A DNA stretch of 64,000 nucleotides from Rhizophlyctis rosea (lineage: Eukaryota > Chytridiomycota > Chytridiomycetes > Rhizophlyctidales > Rhizophlyctidaceae). Where the stretch lies: positions 1 through 64,000 of the forward strand of contig JADGJC010000099.1 in assembly GCA_027596075.1 (NCBI GenBank), in the 5' to 3' direction. The notes below the pieces were generated by a model. It was not told where the DNA came from. It saw only the letters and a list, made by a program, of their open reading frames with translations, and ran no database searches. The position numbers and the translations under genes were made by a program. This document shows, one piece after another, positions 913 to 61,420 of this stretch (the first letter of the stretch is position 1; each line of letters starts with the position of its first letter).

Positions 913-3900
913 TCACCCCTCCCCAACCCTATACCTCCTCAACACCTCCCTCAACCTCTCCATCAAAAACGGCTTCCCAACCGCCTCATCAGCACCAACC
1001 TCCTCCAACGTCCGCTGCGCTTCCGCGTTCCCGGCAACCTGGTTAGCAGTAGTAATCACGATCGGTGTTCGAACACCCAACGACCGAATGCGGCGCGTGG
1101 CGTCGTACCCGTCCATGTTGGGCATTACGATGTCCTGTAGGTGGAAGACGATTTGGTAAGTTGTTGCGATTATGATATGGGGATGACGGGTGGGGAAAGG
1201 GAAGGGGTTGTGCAATTGAAGGTATGGACTTACCATGAAGATTATTTTGTACTCTGTTTCACCGGCGGGAGTTGTGGGAGATGTTGAACGGGGTTTTTGT
1301 AGGCTTTTTGATACGAGGTCGACGGCTTGGAGTCCATCGCCAGCTTGATCGATCCTCCACCCGCCTTCAGGTGGTAAGATTCTCTGTAACATGCGTACGA
1401 GGATACTCCGGTTGATTGTTGAGTCGTCCACGATTAATATTGCGTTCGATCCTGCTGGCAGTGTTTCAGGTTTTCCCACGGAGTCGTTGATGAGGACAGG
1501 AGAAGGGGACGGCTTAAGCGCAACCGGCGCGTGTAGTAGTTGTGTCGTAGACAAAATACGCGAGGGGGATGGAGGTAACGGCGGTGACGGTAAGGCTTCC
1601 GTAAGACGAGGCTGAACAACCAATTCGTCACTCCTCGGAGTTAAAAGCTCCGGCAAGAAGGGTGTAACAGGCGGTGATATGGCCATAGTAGCTAACGTAA
1701 TTTCATTCAGGAGAGGGTGTGTGCTTCCTTCACTTATACTACCTCCCCCGTCCACCGTCGAACTGGCGGCTCGGGATAGAGTGGTACCGGACATGACGAC
1801 GCCCAGTACATTTCCATTTGTCATGACGGCGTTGGATACTTTGGCGTCTACGAGGTGGAGGACGTCGCGGATGCGTTCGGCTACTTGGCTGCCTTCCATA
1901 GGGGTGTTGGCCTTTGGTAGTTGGTCCGCGATGGGGGTTGGATGTAGACTTGGACTATCGTCTTTCCTCCATTCGGAATCTCGTCCTCCACCGCCTCGTT
2001 TCTTCAACCCGCATCCCTCGGCGTTGCTTGCTTCCTCAGATGAGGGTCCGACAATACATAACGGCAATCGAACTGTGAAGACACTCCCTCTTCCGATGGT
2101 TGTGTCGACACGGATGGATCCCCCCATGAGTTTCACAATTTTGTCTGTAATAGCCAGTCCGAGGCCCGAGCCCCCGTATTCGCGCATGGTGGAGACGGCC
2201 GCTTGGGCGTATGGACGGAAAAGTTGTGACACAACTGATGGGTCCATGCCTATTCCCGAATCCGATACCGAAAGTTCCAAATCAACCCACTCCTCCTCCT
2301 CTGTAGATCCAGAACTACTACCTGACCGCGACTCCAATGACGACAGTTTCCTTCTCAAATCCGACTCAGATGCAGATTTGATCCTTCCCAGAAGTCCCTG
2401 ACTCCCCCTCTTCCCCCCAACAAGCCCAACATCCACACTCCTCGGCCGTTTTTGCTCCTCGCCACCCCCCCCCCCACCCCCCCACCCAACAACCCAAACC
2501 TCAACCCCAACACTCCCCCCACCCGGCGTAAACTTATACGCATTCCCCACTAAATTATTAAGCACCTGCTGAACCCTAACCGGATCCGTCCTAACCCACC
2601 TCGGCACCCCCTCCCCAACCTTCCCACTAAACCGCACCTGATGCTTCCGCACCATCTCTCTCGCCAGCTCAAAATGTGTCTTCAACAACACGTGTAAATC
2701 GACAGGCAGTTGTTCAAGTCTTACGCGACCGGCTTCGAAGCGGCCCATGTCGAGGACGTCGTTGACGAGGGCTAGCATGTAGGTTGAGGAGACGCCTATT
2801 GCGTGGGCTTGGGAGAGGGCTGTTGTGTGGGTTGCGGAGGAGGAGAGGGGGAGTTCGAGGGAGGAGATTGAGGTGAAGGTGTGGGATTTTTGGGTTTCGA
2901 GGTGGGTGGGGAGGTGGTTGTGAGTAGTGGACGGGGAAGCGAGGGTGGAGGAAGTTGGAGCGTCGTTGATGAAGGAGTCGGGTGTTTGTTTCGTATCGTC
3001 ATCAACTCCATCGACTTCCACGCCGTCAACCCCATTCTTCCCATCCTTAACCGTATCAAACCCCTTCTCCAACTCCCTCAAATCCTCCAACAAAAATTCA
3101 CTCATGTTGCTGATAGCATGCAAGGGATTCCTCAACTCATGACACAAAAAACTCAAAAAAACCGCTTTGTCCTGACTCGCCGCCTCGGCTCGTTCCCGTT
3201 CCCTCTCCAACCCCCTCAACGCACCCCTCAACTCCTCCGTCCTCACACGGACTTTCTCCTCCACCTCCGCATGTGCCCGGTCCCGATCGGATATGATAAC
3301 AACAAACGATAGAGCGGTGAAAATGAGGACAGACATGAACAGCTGGATCCAGATAAACTGTTCCGCTGCAGTCAAGGTGTGGTCGTTTTCGATTTTCGGC
3401 CAGGTGGATTTGATTAGGGTTGCTGTGGCGGAGGCGAGGGCTACGAGGAAGGTGGAGGAGGAGGCGCCGAAGACTCCGAGGAGGGAGGAAGCGTAGAGGA
3501 CGAGGGGGTAACAAAGGTATAGGCCTGTTATGGCGGAAAGGACGGAGCCCTGGATGTAGAGAGTGGTTAACGTCGGACAGAGGATGATGATCATCATGAG
3601 GATAATGAGTTGTATGAGTTTTCGAGGTTGTGTGCGAATGAATGTGAGAAATGTACGAAGTTCAAAACGACGGAGGGATATGATAAGAGTTGCGGATAGT
3701 GATATGCCAACGAGGTTGCGGCCCAGCCACTGTTGTTCATGGAAAGAAGACAATAGTGGGCAAATCGGTATGAATCAGAGAACAAAACGTGGAAGCTCAA
3801 ACTTACCTTAATGTAAGCACTTTGGAATGACCTCTTCCTGATCATCCCTATCGAAAACCCCGCTCCAGCCAGAGCAGTGACCAGGCATACCAACATTCCC

Positions 3901-33504: not shown

Positions 33505-36192
33505 CTAATCACCCATCCTCCTCCGCTTCCCAGCATTCTCCACCTCAAACCCCACCTCTCCACCTTCCCGCTCATCGACGTCAATAACCAGCACTCGTTT
33601 CTGGAAAGTGCGTCCCCGCCTTAGATATACAACATTCCAGCAAACGGCGCATCCGCACAACTTGAAACGACCCTTACCTTTTTCTCCCCTCCTCTACCTA
33701 CACCCCTCACCGACGAAGCGCCGCCTCTCACCGCCGATTCCGACGGCACTGGACTCGAAGTAGGACGGAAAAGATCGTCCACTCCGTCAGGTTCGTCGTC
33801 ATCCGGTGGGTGCGGTATTGAAAGCTCTCTGCACGCTTTTGCTGCAGGGGAAACTATGTTCAACATAGTTGAGGTTTAATACAGAAGCAAGTGTCGCGGC
33901 AATTCGTAGATGGTGTACCTCGCTGTATGTTCAGTTCTCGTAGTGATAATCTTGGGTGGGCTTGCCGAGGGTTTATTCTGGTATGCATAGAAGATATGTC
34001 AGTTCAAAATATCAAACTTATGCATCTTCGCCGGAGTCGAACAACACACCCATGCCGTGATTCTATATCATGTGAACTACCAAGAGCTGCGCGCAGCCTT
34101 CGTGGAGAGGTAGTCTCGTGTCTTTGAGCCTCAGTAGGATCGTCGCAACCCATCTGAAGTTGATCGAAATAATCTGTTTGAAGCTCATCATCTGAGAGGA
34201 AGAAATTCAGTAATTTGGCGTTTGGCCTCCCCAGTTCGGGCCATGACAGTTGCGGAATATAGCGCACCTTCTACTATGATGGGAAGATTATTCGCCATAT
34301 GTGAACTAGTTGGACGGTCACAATCATTTGCACTCTCACGAGACGGCGACCGGGTCGGGAGATGTCTTCTGGCCTGCACGTCTACAGGCTCCTCTTTCAC
34401 AGATATCTTCTCTGCGCAAAGATGTAACGGCACATCAGATGAGCATCTCAAAGAAGCATACCACCAACCGTCCAACTTTGCCATCCTTACCTTCCACGTC
34501 CTCTGCGGAACTCTTCCGCGCTGATGACATATCTATCAAAGTCTTCCCCATATCTAGCCCCACCTGCACAATATTTTCCCGCACTCCATCAATGTCCTTC
34601 TTCAACGTCCCCAACCCCTCGTTCACCATCACAGCCTGTCTCTCATCCTTCCTCCCAATTTGCCGCAGCGCGTCCTCCATTCCATCAACCCTCCCCGACA
34701 GCTCCGCGAGGATCTTCTGAATAGCATTCATAGGTACGCCCATTTCTGTGTTCACCCGTGCAGAAAAAGCGTTTAGGGCAGACGTATGTTTCGACGTATC
34801 ACGTTGGAGAGTTTGTAATGTTGAGGTGATTTTGTTACGCCATGCGTTTGAAGCGCTTTCCGTTTGGTTGGTTTGCTTCAATTGCGAGAGAATGTCTATT
34901 TGCCGGTCGTGTAGTTCGTTGAGTCGCTGCGAGATGAAGCATAGTAAGTCTTTGGTTTAAGCGCTGTTACAACAATGAACGATTGGAAAACTCACCACCT
35001 GTGAAGCGGCTATATTCTCAGAAAGTGATCGCAACTCACATGACACATCATTATGAAAAGTTTGCAAAAACGTTTCCAGCTCGGTCCTCACAGACGTTCG
35101 AACTGCGCCAGCGCATCAGAGATATGAACTTGCACACCTCAAACATGAGATCACAAAACCTACCACATTCTTCCACCAAAACTCTCAAAGCCTCAGGCTT
35201 AAACCCCTCCACAGTCTCCTCCACCTCCTTTTTGACCATTTCCCGAAACTCTCTAACTTCGCCAAAAGCGCTCTTCAACTTCTTCATCGTGTCCTCCAAA
35301 AGGTACTGCACGTCCTTCTTGAGCAGGAATGACCGAGGATCGAACCCATATGGTGACGTTCCGGACTCGAATATGGTTTGGGATAAAGGTTGCGCGCCGG
35401 ATGAGGGGGGAAGAGCGCTCGATTGGGAGAAGCCGAGGGTGGAGGGTGTTCGTCGTTGGGTGGGAGGTCTGGTAGTTGTGGAGTTTGATGTGGGTGCGGA
35501 GGAAGAGAGAAGGGGAGCTTTGGAAAGGTAGTTGGTGATGAAAGCGGGCACCTGCTGAGTTATTGTTTCGGAGCGGTGTGACGATGTGCGGTTGTGGTTA
35601 TTTTGGGGCGACTGAAGAATGAACATCAATAATGTAAACAATGTGGCCTTTCATCATATTACAAGTTCGGGATACCAACCATCCAATTTCGTGATCTTCC
35701 ATGATACTCCTGTGTCTTGTTACCGCTATTCTCTCTGCCGCTATCACCACGTGATTCCATCTGCTCCACGCCAGTCATGTCGTTGGACTTATCACCAGCC
35801 ATCCGCTCCAGTATACTCTCAGACGCACACGTATCGTCCGACCGCTGCGATTCATCAATATCCACCTGACTCGCCATTCCAATCTGACTGGACCCTAACC
35901 CCCGTATGGTTCCGCCCTTGAAGAGCTGCGGAGATTGCTCACTATAAGCCTGACTGTTCAACTCCATCTGACTGACGCCCTGAGCTTGCGTGAAATTCCC
36001 TCTCGTGAAGAGCGGCGAAGATGCATTATTGGTGTCAGATTGGGTGGAACCTAGCGGGCGGGACTGAGACCGGTCAAGTGGGTGTGATTTTGATGCCGTG
36101 GCAGTAAGATATGATGAGGAAAAGGAAGAGGTAGGTAGAAAGTCGGGGTTTCCCACGCGGAGGACTGGCTTGTATTGGGGTATTGAAGTCAT
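33505..36192 (-). CDS. Coiled-coil protein of unknown function with duplicated Ser-rich segment
   Basis: Multi-exon gene from ATG 36192 (MTSIPQYKPVLRVGNPDF) to TAG at 33505. Parts in order: a disordered Ser/Gln-rich N-terminus containing a ~70-residue segment shared with the chimeric gene at 54.9-59.7 kb (both carry RGLGSSQIGMASQVD); a Ser/Pro segment; then long helices, KDVQYLLEDTMKKLKSAFGE, RLNELHDRQIDILSQLKQ and NTEMGVPMNAIQKILAELSG, predicting a parallel coiled coil; an acidic, Arg-containing tail (VKEEPVDVQARRHLP, ELSIPHPPDDDEPDGVDDL); and a final exon, RVLVIDVDEREGGE ... GKRRRMGD, with a terminal basic cluster. The exon 1 donor (ATG|GTTGGT) is weak. The shape (disordered head, central coiled coil, basic tail) resembles chromosome-axis or kinetochore proteins, but no family can be named. 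Confidence 0.68.
35836..36055. repeat. Copy A of a dispersed coding duplication (partner 55556-55786)
   Basis: About 220 bp with strong base-for-base similarity to 55556-55786 in the same orientation, including the shared run CTGACTCGCCATTCCAATCT. It encodes the shared segment of the two minus-strand genes. Confidence 0.85.
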
Positions 36193-45115: not shown

Positions 45116-45391
45116 CCCTTTTGCCACTATTGCCATATTTGGGGCACCGTGCACTGTAGCTGCGTCATTTAGCTGTTTTTAGCTGCAATGGTTCCCACAA
45201 CTCGCACAACGTCGCGCAACGCGTTGATCCTTTGTCTTCACCCACTCTTCACCTTACCTATCTTTTGCCCTTCTCCAGATCAAAATACCAAGACCGCTTA
45301 CAAACCACTGGCAGCAGCACGGATGGACAGCCTCTTTTTACTTCGAAAGAAGACGGGACAGCATCGTTCCCTCCGATACTGACTCCCCGAC

Positions 45392-46714
45392 GTGCCCCTG
45401 GTCCATATCTTCGCTTCATTCCAAATTCCCCCGATCCTCATCTGTGAACGCGTCTGCAAACAATGGTCCACGTTCATCCGCAACACCCAAATCGCTCAAA
45501 TATGGAAGACAGTGCTGGTCAAAGAGTTTCCAGAGGGGTGCTTGCCTGTGCCGTTCGGGCGCGATAATTGGAGGGATGTAGCATTGTTGTGGTTCGCATG
45601 GAGTAGGCCGTGGACGATTTACAGGGTTGGGCCTCATATAATAGCGGAGGAAGTAGGGGTTGGGAGCACAATACCGCAAGCAGATAGAGACGTTGTGAGG
45701 GATCTGACCGCTTTACCGGAATTTGGCGCGCGTATGCGAATCCTGGGTACCCATGTGGATGGGCGGGCAGTGTTACATCCCTTCAGAAGCTTTGGCGAAT
45801 GCTTGGCAACGGTCCCCATCCATGACATCGTCTTCACGGAAGCATACGCGTTCCCACTCGGACGCCATATTGACGACATCGACTATACCATTCCGTTTGC
45901 GCGGACAAACTTCGTAGCTCGTCGTCCTCACGGAGGTTCCACGCGCACGTTTGAGGACTGGCGGACGGGAGAGATAGTGGGCAAAGTGTCGGTCGCTAAA
46001 GGAAATCCTTCAAATAGTGACGAACTGTGTTATGCTGCAATATGCGGAGATGCACAAGTTTCTACCAACGACCACAAGGCACAGCCGACATTAAATTTCA
46101 CCCGGATCACCCCAGCGAACGGAGGCAATCTACGTTCAACTCCGATCGTGCATCGTCCGAACAGGGAGGCGAAAAGCGCGCATAACGAGCGTTTCCTAGT
46201 ATATGCAACACCACCCCAGTACAACGTCTGGCCACCTGTTCCTTTCAAACGCGGACAAATTCACCTCCTCCGCCTCGACGACGGCCACGAACTTGCTCGT
46301 TCCACTTGGGGACAGCATGGGGCCCTCTTCCTGACCAGGTTCAACCTCATCATCGTCACAAAGTCCCCTTTTCATCAATGCATGGTGTTTGATTTGCAAC
46401 AACTCCGGCACCTCTACACAATCGAAGTACCAACAGCGCTCCGGATCCAAGTACTCGCTAACGACCGATTGATCATAATTGACCGGAGAAGGAGACCTGG
46501 CTCTTCGATCCATTTTACCGAGCCTTTCAACGACTTGTTCTGCCAAATCATGTTGATGAGATTGCAAACGGACGTTCTGAGAAGAGTAGACCAGGCGGTT
46601 ACATGTTTTTCACAACAGAGTACGGCGTCCATTCGAACGGTGTGCGGAATGGAGAAAGGGGCCGGTCGGCGTGTTATTGGCGATGGGTACGGTGCTGTTC
46701 GAAGGGAGAGATAG
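45392..46714 (+). CDS. F-box-like protein, first of a tandem pair, start codon missing
   Basis: A 440-codon frame without stops, paralogous to the gene at 47463-48791: both share an F-box-like head (LPDxxLxxIF...CExVxKxW), then EFPEGCLPVPFGRDNWRDV versus GFPEGCAPARYGMENWRDV, and FAWSRPW versus WAWSRPW. The remainder (QIHLLRLDDGHELARSTW, FHQCMVFDLQQLRHLYTIEV) looks like a degenerate beta-propeller, the usual C-terminus of such fungal F-box proteins. An in-frame TGA lies directly before LPD, and no ATG or acceptor AG exists between it and the F-box. The paralogue's start MTSLKT is therefore not matched here. Either a start codon was lost (5'-damaged gene), or the true first exon uses a non-canonical splice. 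The next in-frame ATG falls after the F-box. Confidence 0.6.
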   Translation: MPLVHIFASFQIPPILICERVCKQWSTFIRNTQIAQIWKTVLVKEFPEGCLPVPFGRDNWRDVALLWFAWSRPWTIYRVGPHIIAEEVGVGSTIPQADRDVVRDLTALPEFGARMRILGTHVDGRAVLHPFRSFGECLATVPIHDIVFTEAYAFPLGRHIDDIDYTIPFARTNFVARRPHGGSTRTFEDWRTGEIVGKVSVAKGNPSNSDELCYAAICGDAQVSTNDHKAQPTLNFTRITPANGGNLRSTPIVHRPNREAKSAHNERFLVYATPPQYNVWPPVPFKRGQIHLLRLDDGHELARSTWGQHGALFLTRFNLIIVTKSPFHQCMVFDLQQLRHLYTIEVPTALRIQVLANDRLIIIDRRRRPGSSIHFTEPFNDLFCQIMLMRLQTDVLRRVDQAVTCFSQQSTASIRTVCGMEKGAGRRVIGDGYGAVRRER

Positions 46715-47462
46715 GGAAGAAGTGTGGACGGTGTGATCCTGGTGGGCGGGTGGCTGCTGTAGCTTTAGAGTCTCGATTGGCGGGGAATGATCAAACGGAT
46801 GCCGACGGGAGCGGATGGGAGAAGTAGGATGTATTGGCGAGGATGGCCTGATTTTCAATAGATGTTCAGATCCTGATTGTGTCAACTGTGGAAAATGTGT
46901 TTTGATGGCGGAGTATTCTTCAATCATAAAGACTAGGTGGTTGACGTCATTGAAATCATGTGTCTCAGCATCTGAATATTGGGCAAAGAGAACGAGGGAA
47001 ATTTTGGATAGTTGATGAGCTGCAGTAAAGGTTGTTATCGTTACCATCACTTGATCAGCGGGCAAAATCTCGCTATTCTCCAGTCAAATCTCCAACAGGT
47101 GGCACAGTCAAGCTAAGTTACAGCTGGTGGGTAACGTCGTCGACGTGCGTGTTGTCTTCCAACCTTCCCCACGATTGTCGATTGCTCATCGCGATAACTT
47201 TTGCATTGGGTTAGTTTTGCCCGTGATTTCCGCACGAATTGTTTGAAAAGACAGCCTCCAGCTATTTTTTCGATGTTCGGTTGATTCGGGAGCAAGACCA
47301 ATATTTATTCTGTTGTGAAGGTGTGTTCCTGCTCGCTAATATTTTACATACCTGTTTCCATCTACAAAGAAGCCAAGCTCAATTCCGCAAAAGTTTTCCA
47401 CTGGACAGACAGCATACTGCAACGCTGGCCATCGCCGCCACTACAATACTATCCATCGAACA
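46715..47462. other. Intergenic between the tandem F-box paralogues
   Basis: No supported gene; short frames only. Presumably the 3' UTR of the first and the promoter of the second paralogue. Confidence 0.3.
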
Positions 47463-48791
47463 ATGACATCCCTCAAAACCCTACCAGACATCCTGATCCT
47501 CATCTTCACAAACCCGATTCTCAGCATCCCGGATCTTCTCCGCTGCGAACAAGTCAACAAGCTGTGGTACGGGCTCATCCGCCGTAACAGCGACGTCCGG
47601 GTTTGGAGAGCGAGGCTTGTTGCGGGGTTTCCGGAAGGGTGTGCTCCTGCTCGGTATGGGATGGAGAATTGGAGGGATGTTGCGACGTCGTGGTGGGCTT
47701 GGAGTCGACCGTGGGAACCGGCTGAAGCAAAAAGGCTCAAAGGTGCGAAGGTGGAGGTGCTCGAGGTTGGGGAAACGCTGAGTAGAACTCAGGACGGGGT
47801 TGTGAGTGATTTGGTGTTCGGCGACTCTCAAAGGACAGTCGGCATACAGCCCGATGGTCAAATCGTTGTCAAACGGACCGCTCACAGCGCCTTCGCTTTC
47901 CTCGACACCGTCTTTGCGGACACAATCGTTCGCGCAATCACCGACATAGCGAGTATCCCCCATATCGGTGGGAAAGCTCTGATCCGAAGGTCTCCACCTA
48001 TTTTGGATTCTTTCAGCTACAGGCTAGAAAACTGGGACACCGGCAACATCTTAGCGCGCGACCGTGATTTGAGGGTGCCTACTAGGTTTCTGAAGGGAAT
48101 CTTCTCTTCCCATCTGGAAGGCATCTTCGAAGGGGGTTTGCTGTTGCCGTGGAAGGAACCGTCCGTTCGTTTCGTCCCGATTGACAATTCATCCCAAGTG
48201 ATAATCCATGAGGATAGTCAATTATCTATCAACGCCTTCTCCTCTTTCAACACCTCTTCCGCATCCAACGACTGCGTATTGGTCAGACTCGGGAGGTTGA
48301 GCCACGCCTACGGCACACACGACGGCACGAGATTCCACTACACTTTGTCCGTCATCCGCATCAATGACAAAAGAAGGGTCGGGTACAACAAGATCTCCTG
48401 CTGCACCATAGACAAGATCGCTGTCAGCAAGTTCAATATTTTCCTTTCACGGCGGGATCATCAGCATTGTGTCTTTGACTTCCACGCAAACCATCTTTAC
48501 ACGCTCGCAATCGAACCATTCTGGCATGACGTGTATTGGCGGTTTAACCCCAGTCTTGAGGGAGATAGCTGGATTGTGTTGACACATGAATCGGCGGAAT
48601 ACCTTACGGTGTTGGATCCAAGGGCGCGGACCTATCAGCGGCAGGAGCGACCTAGTGGTCACAGGCGGTCGGAGGAGAGTGGGCGGAAGGAAGGATACTA
48701 CTTTGCTGTAAAGGAATATTCGGTGGATGCGTCCGGGAAAAGGACGGGTGCTGAGGGGAGGAGTCGTTTCTTTTGGAAATGGACGGAATGA
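47463..48791 (+). CDS. F-box-like protein, second of a tandem pair, intact
   Basis: Single-exon gene of 442 codons from ATG (MTSLKTLPDILILIFTNPIL) with F-box helices to about residue 45 (LLRCEQVNKLWYGLIRR), likely the Skp1-binding part of an SCF ubiquitin ligase. It shares FPEGC, NWRDVA and WAWSRPW with the upstream paralogue at 45392-46714. The C-terminal 350 residues alternate short beta-like strands (HYTLSVIRINDKRRVGY, QHCVFDFHANHLYTLAIEPF), consistent with a poorly conserved propeller for substrate binding, ending SRFFWKWTE. Both copies keep the same order but differ strongly outside these motifs, so the duplication is old. Confidence 0.75.
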   Translation: MTSLKTLPDILILIFTNPILSIPDLLRCEQVNKLWYGLIRRNSDVRVWRARLVAGFPEGCAPARYGMENWRDVATSWWAWSRPWEPAEAKRLKGAKVEVLEVGETLSRTQDGVVSDLVFGDSQRTVGIQPDGQIVVKRTAHSAFAFLDTVFADTIVRAITDIASIPHIGGKALIRRSPPILDSFSYRLENWDTGNILARDRDLRVPTRFLKGIFSSHLEGIFEGGLLLPWKEPSVRFVPIDNSSQVIIHEDSQLSINAFSSFNTSSASNDCVLVRLGRLSHAYGTHDGTRFHYTLSVIRINDKRRVGYNKISCCTIDKIAVSKFNIFLSRRDHQHCVFDFHANHLYTLAIEPFWHDVYWRFNPSLEGDSWIVLTHESAEYLTVLDPRARTYQRQERPSGHRRSEESGRKEGYYFAVKEYSVDASGKRTGAEGRSRFFWKWTE

Positions 48792-54942: not shown

Positions 54943-57900
54943 TCACAAACCCCTCCCACCCGCCGGCATTTCCCCATCCCCACCTCCCTCCCCCGCCGCT
55001 CCCTCCCCACCTCCACCCTCCCCATCTGCAACAACATCCTTATCAACCTTCCGCCTCTTCGTCTTAACCTGCTGCATCTCCGGCACCCCCCTCGGCAGCC
55101 CCAACTTTATCTTCTTCTCCCCATCCGCCGTCAACGCATCCTCATCCCCGGCATCATCCGACCCCGTCTGGAACGTAGCCTGAGATGAAGGTTGTGTGTG
55201 CGAAGGAGGTGTGGGAGTTTGCGTTTGTTGCGCCGGCGTTTTCGTCCGTTGGGCAAGTCGACAGGCTTGATTTTCCATCGCCTTCGCGGACAGTTTTGGT
55301 TTGAATTTCGGAATGGCGGGGGGTTTACGGAGGCGGTCGTCCAGGTTGGGGATGTCGTTGGTGTGCGGGGTGGGATGTGTTGGTTGGAATGTGGAGGGTC
55401 CTGCTGTCCCGTACGGTGTTGTGGTCGGACCGCGTCCATTCTGATCGCTCATGCCCATACCAAGACCTCCCCCTCCAAACACTCCATCCATCCCACCACC
55501 ACCATGACTACTACCCCCTGCACTCCCCGGCACAACCCCACCCGCACCCGACACGTCCGACCGCTGCAATTCATCAAAATCTACCTGACTCGCCATTCCA
55601 ATCTGACTGGACCCTAATCCTCGCATAGTGCCATCTAGGAATGTCCGCTGTGAAGATTGTTCACCATAATCTTGACTGTTCAACTCCATCCGACTGACGC
55701 CCTGAGCTTGCGGGAAGTTCTCTTTCGTAAAGAACGGCGATGGAGCCCTGTTCGTATCAGATTGAGTGGACTCTAGTGGATGGAATCGAGACGACAAGGT
55801 TGGCGCGGGGCGGATGATGGGTGGTGTTGATGATCCAGGACGACCGAGCTGCCCATGACCGAAAGGACCCGGCGAAGAGAACGATATAGGCGTACCATCA
55901 GACGGCCGCCGGGAGTGATTTTGTACAAGGGGTTTGGGCTTGATTCGTTTATCCCAGTAGCCGCTTATCGTCAGTCCTTCATTCTCAGTTGGTCTTCTGA
56001 TACGCTTACGAGCAATCGACCCTACGGATGAGTCAGACATTCCGTCGGTATCAGGGCCCATACTGTCCGAGCGAGTCGCTGAAGGTGCAAGAGAACCCTC
56101 GCGGAAGAAGCGGAAACGCGGCGTTTCGTCCAAATCCGAATTCGATTGGTACGGTGTTTCGTGTTCGTCATCAGGATATCCACCTTCCCAACCGCCATCA
56201 ACATTCCTTCCATTCACACTCTTCGCCCGACTTCCACTTCTCCCACCCAAACTCTCACTCCGCCTCCCCAATCCCCACCGACCTTCAACATCCTCACCAA
56301 CACCATACCCCCCACCGCTACCCGACAAGTCTCCTATCATCTCAACGCACTTGGATACGATGGACTGCAAATTTGCCTGAGAAAAGAGCGTCTTGCTGGC
56401 ATCCGCATTTGCGCGTTGTAGCCAATAGCTAAAATGTCCCAGGAGTCTCGTCAGCGACGCGGATCGTTCCTCACTGAAAGGGAAAGAAACGAGGAAATGC
56501 TTGTGAGGATGAAGAAGAGATAAACAGGCCGCGATTCGAAGAGGATTTGGAAAGGGGGGGGGTTACTCACTTAGTCATGTACTCCAAAACCGGCTGCAGA
56601 GTCTGCACGAAGATACGTGGCGCAGCGGCATCCTGTTCGTACCCTCGCAAAGCATTCAAAACACGATCAACAACGTCGACCACGCGTCCTCGGAGCTCCG
56701 GCAAAACCGTAGAAAGAACATCGACCGCACGGTGGAACCGCTCGTCTCCATGATATGCCTAAACACATACGGTAAAAAACAAAACGTCCAGGATAAGAAA
56801 GCGATGCCACAACGTCACCAAACTCATGACGAAACCTCCAAAAACTCTATACGCACCGTAGTCAAATTCAAAAACGCATCAACACACTCCTCCCTACTCA
56901 AAACCCCAAACGACTTAACACTATACAGCCTCGACAACGCATCAACAACCCTCTGATCATCCCTCTTCCTCGCCTTCGTAACCGCATTTTCAAACGCCTC
57001 GCACGTAGCCGACGAAACAAGCGCGAGGATGATGTCAACATGCCAACACTCCACCGCCCAAGCAAACGTCTCGGCTGGACCGTACATCCCACATCTCCAT
57101 CTCGCCTCAGATCTAACCACGTCGCTTGACTGTATCACCTTTTGCATCACACTACTTGTGCAACGCAGGGCCCGACAGCATTGCGGGTGAGAGAGTCGAG
57201 AAATGAGCCGAAAGACATCTGGTGGGAGTACGGAATCGGGAACGATGATGATTGGCTGTTGTTGGACGGCGTAGGGAATGTCCATGTCGTTGTTCTTCGC
57301 GCCGCCGGTGACGTCCCATCCGAATAACTCCTCACACTCCACCCCTAACTCAAGATACGCAGCAACCTCCCGCGCATTATCTACAGATACCCAGGTCTCT
57401 GCTAGTGGTCCCGCAGCGACCCTAGGATTATCCGTGCGACATATCCGGTCGACCGTCCCACCGACTTGGAGACTCTCTCGACCACTCGCTTTCACGATTT
57501 GCGAAACATTGACCAGGCTATCGGAGAGGCGTTTCATGATCAGAGTGTTTCGGACACTCTTTTGGACCACGGATATACCGCCATAGGTTGCACGTCGTAC
57601 CGACACGTTCGCGTCACCCTCCCCGCTCCAATTCTTCCACACACCCTTCCTAACACTCTTCGCCTTCTCCTCAGCATCTCTCAAAGCTTTCGCGTTCGTG
57701 CTCTGGTTCGCCGAGGCTTCGTCGATAGTTGCTACAATCTCAATCAGATATCGAGCCCTCAAGAACCATCAACAGTTCGGAAACAACTTACCAAAACCCT
57801 CAAGTAACAACAAAATCGCAACATTCACCCACCCGCACGCAACAGACTTGATGAACAGCGAACCAAAAAATTCACCATTCCCATCTACACCCTCAACCGA

Positions 57901-59676
57901 AAACTCCACATCCCGTTGCATGCACGTCTTAGCAACAAACATAAACGCCTCGGGCCCAAATGGTTCACTCTTTTCTCCGGACCGTCCAACCCACGGCGTC
58001 TGCACCCCACTCAGATTGAGCGTAATGAAACACTTCTCTGATGGAACGTAGACACGGAACCGGGACGCGCTAGCAATAGCCTCAACAACCCCCTGCAACT
58101 TCCCGGCGGCTTGTAGCTGCGGCAAGAACTTCATGGCTCGCTCAGCATTGAATGACGCGTCGCTGATCCTACGTACGGGTGCGTCATCTTGAGAGTGTAT
58201 GTTGATTTGCGCTGCTTTAGCGGTGTTGAACGCGATCAGAAGCTGGTCGTAGTAGGGCGAACGGCTGTCGTCGTCGTCTTCGTATGGAACAAGATCCGCC
58301 AATCCTTCAGATAGGATGAGCTCCGAGATGTTCTTGTCCCCATCCTTGACCGTGACACATTCCCGTTGCTCCCTCTTACTTCCTACCAGCATCACATAAT
58401 CAATCGAAACCCGAACCCTCTTTCCGATGAGGCGACTCCTGAGGAACTCCTTGGCATCCATGTCGTATCCAAACTCCTTTACGGACACTTTCTCGGCACC
58501 CTTCTCGGCAGGCTTCGGTGCGGGACCCTTAGGAGCACGGATGGATGACAAACGTACTCGCTTCTCCTTCCCGGTGCTCAGGACATGTACCGTCATAGTG
58601 TCACCCGATGAAACTCTGACAACAACCGCCTCAACTTCGGGTTCGGCGCCTCGAAATGACGCAAGCTCCAACCGGTTCGGGGTTACGTTTACGTCCAAAA
58701 GAGAGAGCGGTACGACGGTCTCGAAATGGCCGAAAGGAGTGAGCTTCGTCAGCTTAGGGTTTTCAGGTTGCTTAGTCTCAATGGTAGACCACCATGTACC
58801 ATTAGCGGATTGACTTAGGTGCGGGTTATGTCTTTGCAGGATGAAGTTAGTTTGGTAGCGTCGAAACATTTTGCAAGCAACCAATCAGCGTACCGTTGCT
58901 CGGCGAATTTGAAGAGCTTGGCGACCGCTTTGCCGGGTGAGCCCAAGCGAAACAAGTTCGAGCCGTCGCTGGTTTCGGTTGCCAGATTGATGCGAGGGAG
59001 GAGTATAATCAACATCTCATCCCCTTTTTCTGAGATCCCCACTACCTGTCGATCATCATCAGGGCGACATGTCTTTTCTTATTTGGAGAATGGCAATGCA
59101 TACCTGAGCAAGATCGCCTTGGTAATCGCCGTCATTGATTCTAACCCATTGACGCAACTGAATATCATATTCTCGCGTTGTTGGTGTGAGACACCCCTCC
59201 ATTGCTGCGTATGGGATCGAGACGAGATCTTTCTCATACAAATTCGGTGTGCCACGTATCGCGTACTCCACTTCCGACTTTTCCATCGCTTCGAAATACA
59301 CGCAGCCCTTTTCATCATCACGATAAAATGCAGAAAACATCCCCACAGCCTCGCTAGTATTCCGGTTTTCCGCATATTTCTTCAGTGAGGAATGCACAAC
59401 TTCGCGTTCCTTCCCAACCTACAGCCATGGTAGCCCATCAGTATGCGAATATCATCCATCAAAGCAACACTCTGCATATACCTTGCACCGGCACCGCCAA
59501 AAGCGCGTTTGCGAACTGTCGTTGACCGCTGGAAGGAGTTTAGACCGAGGCATCCCATGATATGCGCTGACATGTCTAAACGGTTCCATTGGAGAAATCT
59601 GGTAGAGCACGCGACGTGAAAAGTGGTCAAACGTTAGATTGCAGTTGTGGCACATCAAGCTTGTGAAGCAGCGCAT
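54943..59676 (-). CDS. Chimeric NGN-KOW / SNase / APSES / F-box-like protein
   Basis: From ATG 59676. (1) A short Cys head (LMCHNCNLTFDHF), then an Spt5-like NGN domain across an intron: FWRCRCK-VGKEREVVHSSLK ... GCVYFEAMEKSEVEYAIRGT ... DLVSIPYAAMEGCL. (2) KOW: WVRINDGDYQGDLAQ-VVG. (3) Two staphylococcal-nuclease domains like the last SN pair of Tudor-SN/SND1: EAVVVRVSSGDTMTVHV, KRVRLSSIRAPKGP, AKEFLRSRLIGKRVRVSID; then FRVYVPSEKCFITLNLSGVQ, EPFGPEAFMFVAKTCMQRDV, DAEEKAKSVRKGVW. No Tudor domain follows. (4) APSES/KilA-N DNA-binding domain: ATYGGISVVQKS, IMKRLSDSLVNVSQIVKASG, ETWVSVDNAREVAAYL. (5) F-box-like LPPDVFRLISRLSHPQCC with following helices. (6) After introns, FHRAVDVLSTVLPEL and a disordered tail to 54943, with the segment shared with 33.5-36.2 kb. 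Parts 3-end to 5 share one continuous frame (57762-56824). The KOW-to-SNase join near 58850 is unclear. It may instead be two genes, with a second start near 57283 (MDIPYAVQQQ). Confidence 0.55.
55556..55786. repeat. Copy B of the dispersed coding duplication (partner 35836-36055)
   Basis: Encodes the tail segment of the chimeric gene containing QAQGVSRMELNSQDYGEQS and RGLGSSQIGMASQVDFDE; base-level similarity to copy A is high through the third codon positions in several runs. Confidence 0.85.
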
Positions 59677-61420
59677 TTTGGAAGTAACTTCAAAATTTAG
59701 GATGCGTTGATCATCGACTAGTCAAGCACCACAATGTACATAGCGCACTCAAGTTGTCAACAGCCCGCTTGTGGAGCAGTGACGTTACCTTCTATCGAGA
59801 GTCTTCCGCACAATTTAGTGATGCAGCGAAGTCGGTTGCGTCCCCGTATTTATCTTATGCCAGGTTCCAACGATCTCAGATTTAGTTTCCCGTATGCATT
59901 ATGATATCGGGAGAGCGTTGCCGCCAGCGGCTGCTGGGCTTCTCCGAGTATTGAGTTGACAGCCAGACGATCACTGACGAGGCTCTTTGCGACCAGCGAG
60001 CGACAGCGAGTGAAGAGGGGAATGCAGGGAAGAAAGGTGTTGCTGTTGGGTGAATATTCCCACGCTCACGCTGGCATGCCTGTGGTGCACTCCATGCTCC
60101 CGCCCACCAGCCAGCCCTGAGCCAGCCCATCTGCCGACACCGGTGACCACTCGACTTCGACATGTCTGCACGGTCGGACCACACTGCGCCTGAGTGGCCG
60201 GTGTGGCACGTGATTGAATATGTTTCCAATTGGGGTGTGTTTGCTTTTGAGTGACTCGGATCACAGATGGACCCTGATCACCAGTGCACCCACATCACAG
60301 CTGGCGGCTGACCCGTGTATCACGTGTCTTTTTTGTGTGACTCACTGACTCCGCTGGCTGATCGTCGTGATTGACCTCCCATCCCTATAAAAGACCCATC
60401 ACCCCTCACCACTCACTCACTCGCCGCCGCCTTGCCCGCTCCCACCCACAACCTTCACCCTTCTCGATCTTTCACGTCTACCACACACCACGGACATCCT
60501 TTCTTCTATCGACTACCGAACGACTTCCACCCCTCGCACTACCATCTACCACCAAAACCGACTTGCACCAACGCTTTCAACTACATATTCCGGCGAGGTG
60601 ACAAAGGTCATCGGCAGCAAATTTGACTTTGGAGGGTGTAGAGGGTATTCAGGTAGAGCAGGACTTCAGTGTGCCTATGCTGTATCGCGGGCGATGTTAC
60701 TTGGGCTGGGCACTGTCGGCGAAACTTTTCAAAACCATGTCGCATAAATGTCCCCCCCATATAAGTCTGATCCCCTTCGGGGTGTATCGTTCTTCCTTTG
60801 ACATGTACATGCACATGAGGTTTTGGGGTCCGCTGGCTTTTCCCTACCACAGACGACATGCAGGGCCCGGGTGGGTTGCTGTCCGACCGGTGTCAGGTTT
60901 AGACGTCCATCTTTTTGGTGGAGCGTCTGCGACAGCACAAGGCACCAGCACTTTCTGCTCTAATGACTTTATGCATTGGTTGTTGAACACTTTAATCCAT
61001 CAGTTTTTTATCCACAGCTTGCTACATACTTTACGCACTCTACTATTCGCAAAACACTCCGCTACCGCTCTCACACTCAAGACGCCATACGTACACACAC
61101 GACTCTTCGACCCCACGGTCCGCGGGGGCAGTCTGGGGAAGGCTGTAATGTCGCCATGACTTCGCAGTCATGAGGGTGGCAAGCCCCTGCAAAGACAGAG
61201 CCAACCTTTTCCCCCATCAACACCAATATCAGCGTTGCCAATATAGTTACTGTTTTTTTGTATATGTTATATTTTGATAATACACTGTCAGTATTATACT
61301 CTTTACATATTGTTCTTGTGTGTGCTCTTGTGTGTTGTAATTCGGCTGTCTTACATATGACATCCACAGTACAGGATAATCATACATTCACATATCACCT
61401 CCTCACCCACAACCTCCCGC
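59677..61420. other. Intergenic with a strong TATA-containing promoter at ~60385
   Basis: Upstream of the chimeric gene (minus). On the plus strand a TATA box, CTATAAAAGACCC, at about 60384-60396 is followed by a CT-rich leader (60405-60600) and GT..AG signals, as in highly expressed fungal genes. I find no matching long coding frame downstream, so it may drive a transcript with small exons or a non-coding RNA. Frames here (60371-60601, 60623-61159) lack domains. Confidence 0.35.

Follow-up and report, generated by a model that had tools for sequence, protein, structure and literature searches.

Spt5 (the large subunit of DSIF), Tudor-SN (SND1/p100), the APSES factors of SBF and MBF (Mbp1, Swi4 and PCG2) and the F-box-ankyrin proteins belong to four unrelated gene families. 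For the SN domains of Tudor-SN, one account (PMC5900569) describes most catalytic residues as degenerate, a single Ca2+-binding Asp of SN3 as strictly conserved and, together with one in SN1, as important in the worm protein, and SN3-SN4 as a basic concave surface with a likely role in RNA binding. In the APSES family, two glutamines of the wing (Q82 and Q89 of PCG2) are given as the key elements recognising the CGCG core (PMC4862756, eLife 2016). Here we describe a gene of Rhizophlyctis rosea, a chytrid of the Rhizophlyctidales, which joins NGN-KOW, tandem SN, APSES and F-box-like modules in this order on one strand. It occupies positions 59676-54943 of the minus strand of a 64,000-base window (the whole stretch of DNA analysed), which belongs to a contig of 124,267 bases (C634) in a draft genome of 44.1 Mb and 634 contigs. 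The gene is a real composite of pieces of the four families, and its composite origin is close to certain; by homology, the pieces trace to the fungus's own Spt5, its Tudor-SN, an APSES gene and its F-box-ankyrin family. The best explanation overall, to which we assign a probability of about 0.6, is that of a single-copy, lineage-specific R. rosea gene that is still kept as coding; the adaptor role proposed below is a distinctly less likely part of it.

The gene model comprises seven exons (59676-59482, 59418-59104, 59045-58894, 58831-57792, 57731-56857, 56758-56571 and 56473-54943) and 1431 codons, separated by six introns of 58-98 bp which are all GT-AG. Its ends are exactly those proposed in the initial annotation of this DNA, which had also listed the modules in the order found here. 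Introns 1-4 are 58-63 bases long and carry a CTRAY-like site 16-23 nt upstream of the acceptor. The locus is already deposited as HDV00_012819, an R. rosea hypothetical protein which a protein search returned at 98% identity over 89% of the query. This deposited protein is shorter than our model, its N-terminus beginning inside NGN; it has the same intron 5, and joins exons 6 and 7 (intron 6) differently. The passage from the last SN domain through APSES to the F-box-like part had been assigned to a single open frame, and the join of the SN4 end, APSES and F-box-like part is indeed open between stops from 57768 to 56824, but the larger part of SN4 is encoded by the preceding exon.

Residues ~36-282 of the predicted protein were found to align with the fungus's own Spt5 (C35) past NGN and KOW1 into the linker that follows, with 98 of 240 residues identical. 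Exon 1 (59482-59676) contains the start codon, is Spt5-like from residue ~36 and encodes the first NGN residues; 65 bases of it match the DNA of the Spt5 gene (C35:241907-241971) at 82%. Most of NGN (residues 66-139, 59418-59197) and the start of KOW1 are encoded by exon 2 (59104-59418), which shows 41% identity with the own Spt5 and matches Spt5 chains in the PDB with a best E of 1.3e-23. Exon 3 (58894-59045) supplies the remainder of KOW1 (to ~58968) and part of the Spt5 linker, and by alignment with the own Spt5 this linker continues at the start of exon 4 (58648-58831) to residue ~282. In a Pfam scan of residues 1-282, NGN (PF03439) scored 54.9 bits (cut-off 22.4) and KOW1_SPT5 23.1 bits (cut-off 22); the latter reached 20.5 bits, under the cut-off, on the shorter deposited protein, and the generic KOW profile 16.0 bits, under its cut-off of 22.3. 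Introns 1 (59419-59481) and 2 (59046-59103) have the place and phase 0 of the corresponding introns of the own Spt5, and intron 3 (58832-58893) has the same phase 2, its place being matched by alignment in a weakly conserved stretch. The three borders common to both genes fall after ..CK, between ..DL(GR/AQ) and V, and between ..E(H/Q)(K/R) and H, in phases 0, 0 and 2. Thus NGN, KOW1, the following linker and three introns are held in common with Spt5, but the composite protein lacks the acidic N-terminus and the C-terminal repeats in its sequence and sits on a very long branch; no further KOW domain and no Spt5 C-terminal repeats were present among the Pfam matches of its pieces.

A search of the R. 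rosea genome returned two NGN matches, Spt5 itself and the composite gene, and a gene for Spt4 is also present. In an NGN tree of 37 rows, which contains long branches flagged by a warning of the tree program, the composite protein falls into one group with two Spt5 proteins of R. rosea (99/99). The own Spt5 is its nearest neighbour (90/78), a placement that is not decisive, and a tree uniting the two Spt5 proteins without the composite was not rejected (approximately unbiased test, p-AU 0.307). The two Spt5 proteins labelled R. rosea, P0022 and P0023, have an identity of only 57% across the NGN-KOW1 stretch used as query, which suggests that the name covers distant isolates. P0023, encoded on a contig of 17,280 bases, is probably from another assembly, because it is missing among the NGN matches of the own genome. 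P0022 is listed with many additional Spt5 accessions.

The second piece derives from Tudor-SN. Residues ~283-612 align with SN3-SN4 of the own Tudor-SN (C603), 236 of 332 residues being identical. The remainder of exon 4 (57792-58647) encodes SN3 and most of SN4, and matches human SND1 (PDB 3bdl) with an E of 1.1e-54; the C-terminal end of SN4, to residue ~612, is encoded at the start of exon 5 (57598-57731), at 73% identity with C603:40906-41037. Intron 4 (57732-57791) interrupts the same codon, in phase 1, as an intron of the Tudor-SN gene. SNase (PF00565) scored 87.8 bits over two stretches of the deposited protein. The own Tudor-SN (P0002) has five SNase stretches and a Tudor domain by Pfam, whereas the Pfam results for the composite contain no Tudor domain and no third SN domain. 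SN1, SN2, Tudor and SN5 are lacking; the absence of Tudor and of the N-terminal SN domains, like that of the rest of Spt5, agrees with the initial annotation. The SGDT stretch of SN3 retains an Asp that, going by SNase numbering, is probably the conserved residue that binds Ca2+. The conserved HRRDD stretch is altered and partly lost, and the net charge of SN3-SN4 has moved from +5 in the parent to -2. RNA contact through SN3-SN4 is possible, but this change of charge and the partial loss of HRRDD suggest that it is probably weakened.

The mode of copying can be read from the introns. Three introns of the composite coincide in place and phase with introns of Spt5 and a fourth with one of Tudor-SN, so the Spt5 and Tudor-SN pieces were copied as intron-bearing DNA and not as mRNA. 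A 76% DNA match with Tudor-SN runs continuously through exon, intron and exon, and this match, together with the introns common to the parents, rules out a retrocopy. The initial annotation had held gene-fragment capture as the alternative to a genuine many-part protein. With four introns from two parents and the match across the Tudor-SN intron, capture is the origin of the gene, not an alternative to it. Assembly probably took more than one step, as suggested by the synonymous sites, which are saturated in the Spt5 part (the fit gave no meaningful synonymous distance, dS), compared with a dS of 0.83 in the Tudor-SN part. Fourfold sites agree with the parent at 12 of 48 positions in the Spt5 piece (5/9, 4/18, 2/10 and 1/11 by exon) against 65 of 117 in the Tudor-SN piece, so that the Spt5 piece probably split off earlier, with exon 1 changing more slowly; gene conversion could give the same pattern.

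The locus resembles the chimeras described for Pack-MULEs and Helitrons or for duplications, in that pieces of several host genes are joined on one strand with their introns. It differs in that no element was found, the pieces probably differ in age and the frame has long stayed open. No MULE domain was detected; no Helitron domain was detected either, in a search that matched no control genome and is uninformative by itself. Between 53500 and 61500, direct repeats of at least 20 bases were absent, as were bounding repeats, and the single inverted pair found (25 bases, 76%) lies inside the composite gene. A plasmid search with one segment gave no match, which has little bearing here. A dispersed repeat at 60588-61230, ~0.9 kb upstream of the gene, has an 86% copy on another contig (C431); its core of ~100 bases (~61104-61230) returned at least 41 further rows in the genome search, and it matched no Rfam family.

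The third piece, at residues 611-706 (57316-57603), is recognised as an APSES (KilA-N) domain by a profile of the fungus's own family but not by Pfam KilA-N. The genome has seven KilA-N places; the profile, built from five of them without C14 and C192, which are of another type, scored 35.7 bits on the piece, the best of 2000 shuffles reaching 6.3. The sole APSES match in a whole-genome search with the composite was the APSES gene on C45 (34% identity), and a PDB search gave four chains at E<=1, of which three were Mbp1 (best E 0.023). The domain can be aligned across the entire DNA-binding domain of Mbp1, Swi4 and PCG2, but it stands in the middle of the protein and its wing (57391-57429) is altered, reading NPRVAAG--PLAETW where the Mbp1-like members have HEKVQGGYGKYQGTW. 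In the alignment, alanine stands at both of the glutamine positions described as reading the DNA in PMC4862756, and the wing is two residues shorter. Both glutamines are kept at five of the seven KilA-N places in the genome and are absent from C14 and C192, so the composite is not the sole member without them. Since both are lost, sequence-specific binding of CGCG-type sites through this domain appears unlikely, and the DNA contact proposed in the initial annotation is not supported.

The F-box-like stretch and a first ankyrin-like unit follow at residues 731-835 (56929-57243). Matches to these residues occur at 39 further places in the genome (39 of 51 rows, counted by hand), pointing to an extensive family of F-box-ankyrin genes in R. 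rosea, a likely source of fragments. In those of the matching frames that we read, the matched part lies near the N-terminal side and is mostly followed by ankyrin repeats, a long array of which the composite lacks. Pfam scans of two related proteins found F-box and ankyrin families; one scored 29.1 bits for F-box-like (cut-off 24.3), the other 21.7 for F-box (cut-off 20.5) and 22.0, below the cut-off, for F-box-like. A profile of the region scored 98.1 bits on the composite against 12.0 for the best of 2000 shuffles; it was made from nine of the 39 places, themselves found with the composite, and is not independent of it. Elsewhere in the window, the frames 45383-46711 and 47340-48788 gave F-box-like matches of 19.7 and 23.4 bits, under the curated cut-off of 24.3.

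The last two exons are attached less certainly. Exon 6 (56571-56758) is a segment without an assigned family which has its best codon score in the model frame; exon 7 (54943-56473), a 539-aa open frame, starts without an assigned family and runs into a long low-complexity tail with basic clusters. It is possible, though we consider it rather improbable, that the model has fused two neighbouring genes, the composite part stopping at 56824 and exons 6-7 belonging to another gene. Introns 5 (56856-56759) and 6 (56570-56474), the least sure part of the model, are longer (98 and 97 bases) and lack a CTRAY-like site, and if intron 5 is left unspliced the protein stops at 56824, directly past the F-box-like part. 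Up to E 10, the genome of the fungus contains nothing else that matches exon 6 or the beginning of exon 7; Pfam gave no match in exon 7, and the deposited protein departs from the model at intron 6. On the other side, the deposited model contains the identical intron 5, and codon scores support the model frame in both exons. A tail segment at 55543-55792 has a 79% identical copy at 35824-36070 with one 3-base gap, the same frame being open in both; this coding-like segment of 250 bases is thus common to two otherwise different stretches 20 kb apart. Around the copy (34-36 kb), four frames were scanned with Pfam and no family exceeded its cut-off.

The main rival to a retained gene is a captured mosaic in decay, in which duplication or a mobile element brought the fragments together, the product is without function and the frame is simply not yet broken. 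The Tudor-SN part bears on this most directly. Under the codon model GY94 the ratio omega of nonsynonymous to synonymous distance was 0.24 (dN 0.198, dS 0.83), a fit better than omega 0.5 by 2dlnL 21.0 and better than omega 1 by 77.8; identity and omega were taken from 332 aligned columns, of which the last ~eight, at or beyond gaps, are doubtful. The 324-codon core ending in WKNWSGE, used for the neutral simulations and the net charge, is free of gaps. With the parent taken as ancestor, stop-free copies made up 2.8% of neutral simulations at distance 0.1, 0.1% at 0.2 and none of 1000 at 0.416 (half of dS), where a copy would average 9.7 stops and 43% identity; the composite has no stop and 236 of 332 identities. 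Coding positions match Tudor-SN at 75.5%, the intervening intron at 31 of 60 aligned bases. Among columns invariant in seven other Tudor-SN proteins the composite keeps 46 of 55, compared with 190 of 276 other columns. In the gene as a whole, codon scores favour the model frame over the other frames throughout exons 2-6 and in every third of exon 7; the scores were trained on Tudor-SN, Spt5 and the six longest frames of the F-box loci and are therefore not independent, these families also making up the composite.

Several observations weigh against retention of a working product. In SN3-SN4, compared over 330 columns with a Borealophlyctis outgroup, 60 positions changed in the composite only and 5 in the parent only (59 in Borealophlyctis only; all three differ at 29), and the NGN end branch is 2.95 against 0.15 for Spt5, both indicating fast change. 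Nine of the 55 invariant Tudor-SN columns are lost, and if half of dS lies on the branch of the composite its omega is about 0.44, so that the constraint would be moderate. In exon 1 another frame has a better codon score than that of the model, and in the middle third of exon 7 the model frame is best only among negative scores. Profile searches, which the initial annotation had suggested as a check, found NGN, KOW1 and SNase by Pfam; Pfam KilA-N and F-box families matched neither the APSES nor the F-box-like part, which were recognised by the own-genome profiles. Adding to this are introns 5 and 6, the lost wing glutamines and the partial loss of the basic SN3 stretch. Decay would also agree with a single copy that has no relative elsewhere among the matches listed, and with the dispersed repeat upstream. 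Against it stand the neutral expectation, the gap-free core, the far better preservation of coding positions than of the intron, and the results of the element and repeat searches given above. The Tudor-SN part is under protein-level constraint, yet far looser than in the parent. We consider a functionless mosaic rather unlikely, and the composite gene to be probably still protein-coding; its retention under relaxed purifying selection is supported for the Tudor-SN part.

Two further explanations concern the source of the pieces. KilA-N domains are described as occurring in DNA viruses too (PMC4862756), and one KilA-N match in the genome (C14) is of a different type, but a viral origin of the APSES part is very improbable, since the profile of the fungus's own APSES genes fits across the entire domain and C45 was the only APSES match in the own-genome search, no viral set having been searched. 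An assembly error that fused unrelated contigs, conceivable in a draft of 634 contigs, is dismissed: the junctions lie inside exons with the frame continuous, and the pieces have diverged from their parents (34-73% protein identity), which does not fit a collapse of identical reads.

The single-copy composite gene appears to be confined to this lineage. In answer to a search proposed with the initial annotation, we ran protein searches with two queries, residues 1-973 and the APSES/F-box part; among the matches listed, from 8000 scored candidates each, no other protein shares the architecture. These searches need shared 5-residue words and could miss a diverged relative, and the one with the APSES/F-box part did not return the genome's own F-box-ankyrin relatives. 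By Pfam, the other 20 hits listed for residues 1-973 were 15 Tudor-SN proteins (one with an added transporter domain) and 5 Spt5 proteins. No report of this domain combination was found by title or abstract opening in one literature library, and the terms Rhizophlyctis, chytrid, nuclease and fusion do not occur in the main text of a survey of elongation factors (PMC13289920). Far from the gene, the window also holds a 953-aa frame (916-3774) with histidine-kinase, ATPase and response-regulator domains, in which MASE1 scored 20.2 bits against a cut-off of 29.8.

As to what such a protein might do, homology makes contact of NGN with RNA polymerase II (Pol II) plausible. As the likeliest of the possible mechanisms, though one of low probability in itself, we tentatively propose a nuclear adaptor, drawn from homology. 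What the NGN-KOW1 part retains of Spt5 may be sufficient to occupy, in competition or jointly, the docking site of Spt4 and Pol II, and this docking would hold the SN3-SN4 lobe close to nascent RNA. The APSES part would serve as a fold or a protein contact, having given up the reading of CGCG, and the F-box-like part may contact Skp1. With the Asp kept, part of HRRDD lost and the net charge lowered, we regard, with modest confidence, an adaptor docked on Pol II as more likely than a factor that binds DNA. A more specific version, which we regard as distinctly doubtful, is a Pol II-tethered RNA factor in which the duplicated NGN-KOW1 would bring SN3-SN4, with its calcium-site Asp, to nascent transcripts, with APSES as a protein contact and the F-box as a link to protein turnover.

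The assembly of a many-part protein can be followed at this locus, with donors, intron phases and relative divergence available from one genome, and with at least the Tudor-SN piece having remained in frame under constraint. If expressed, it would place elongation, RNA-binding and APSES modules in one protein, a combination not found elsewhere among the matches listed, and would offer a testable case of domain reuse following the loss of DNA-reading residues.

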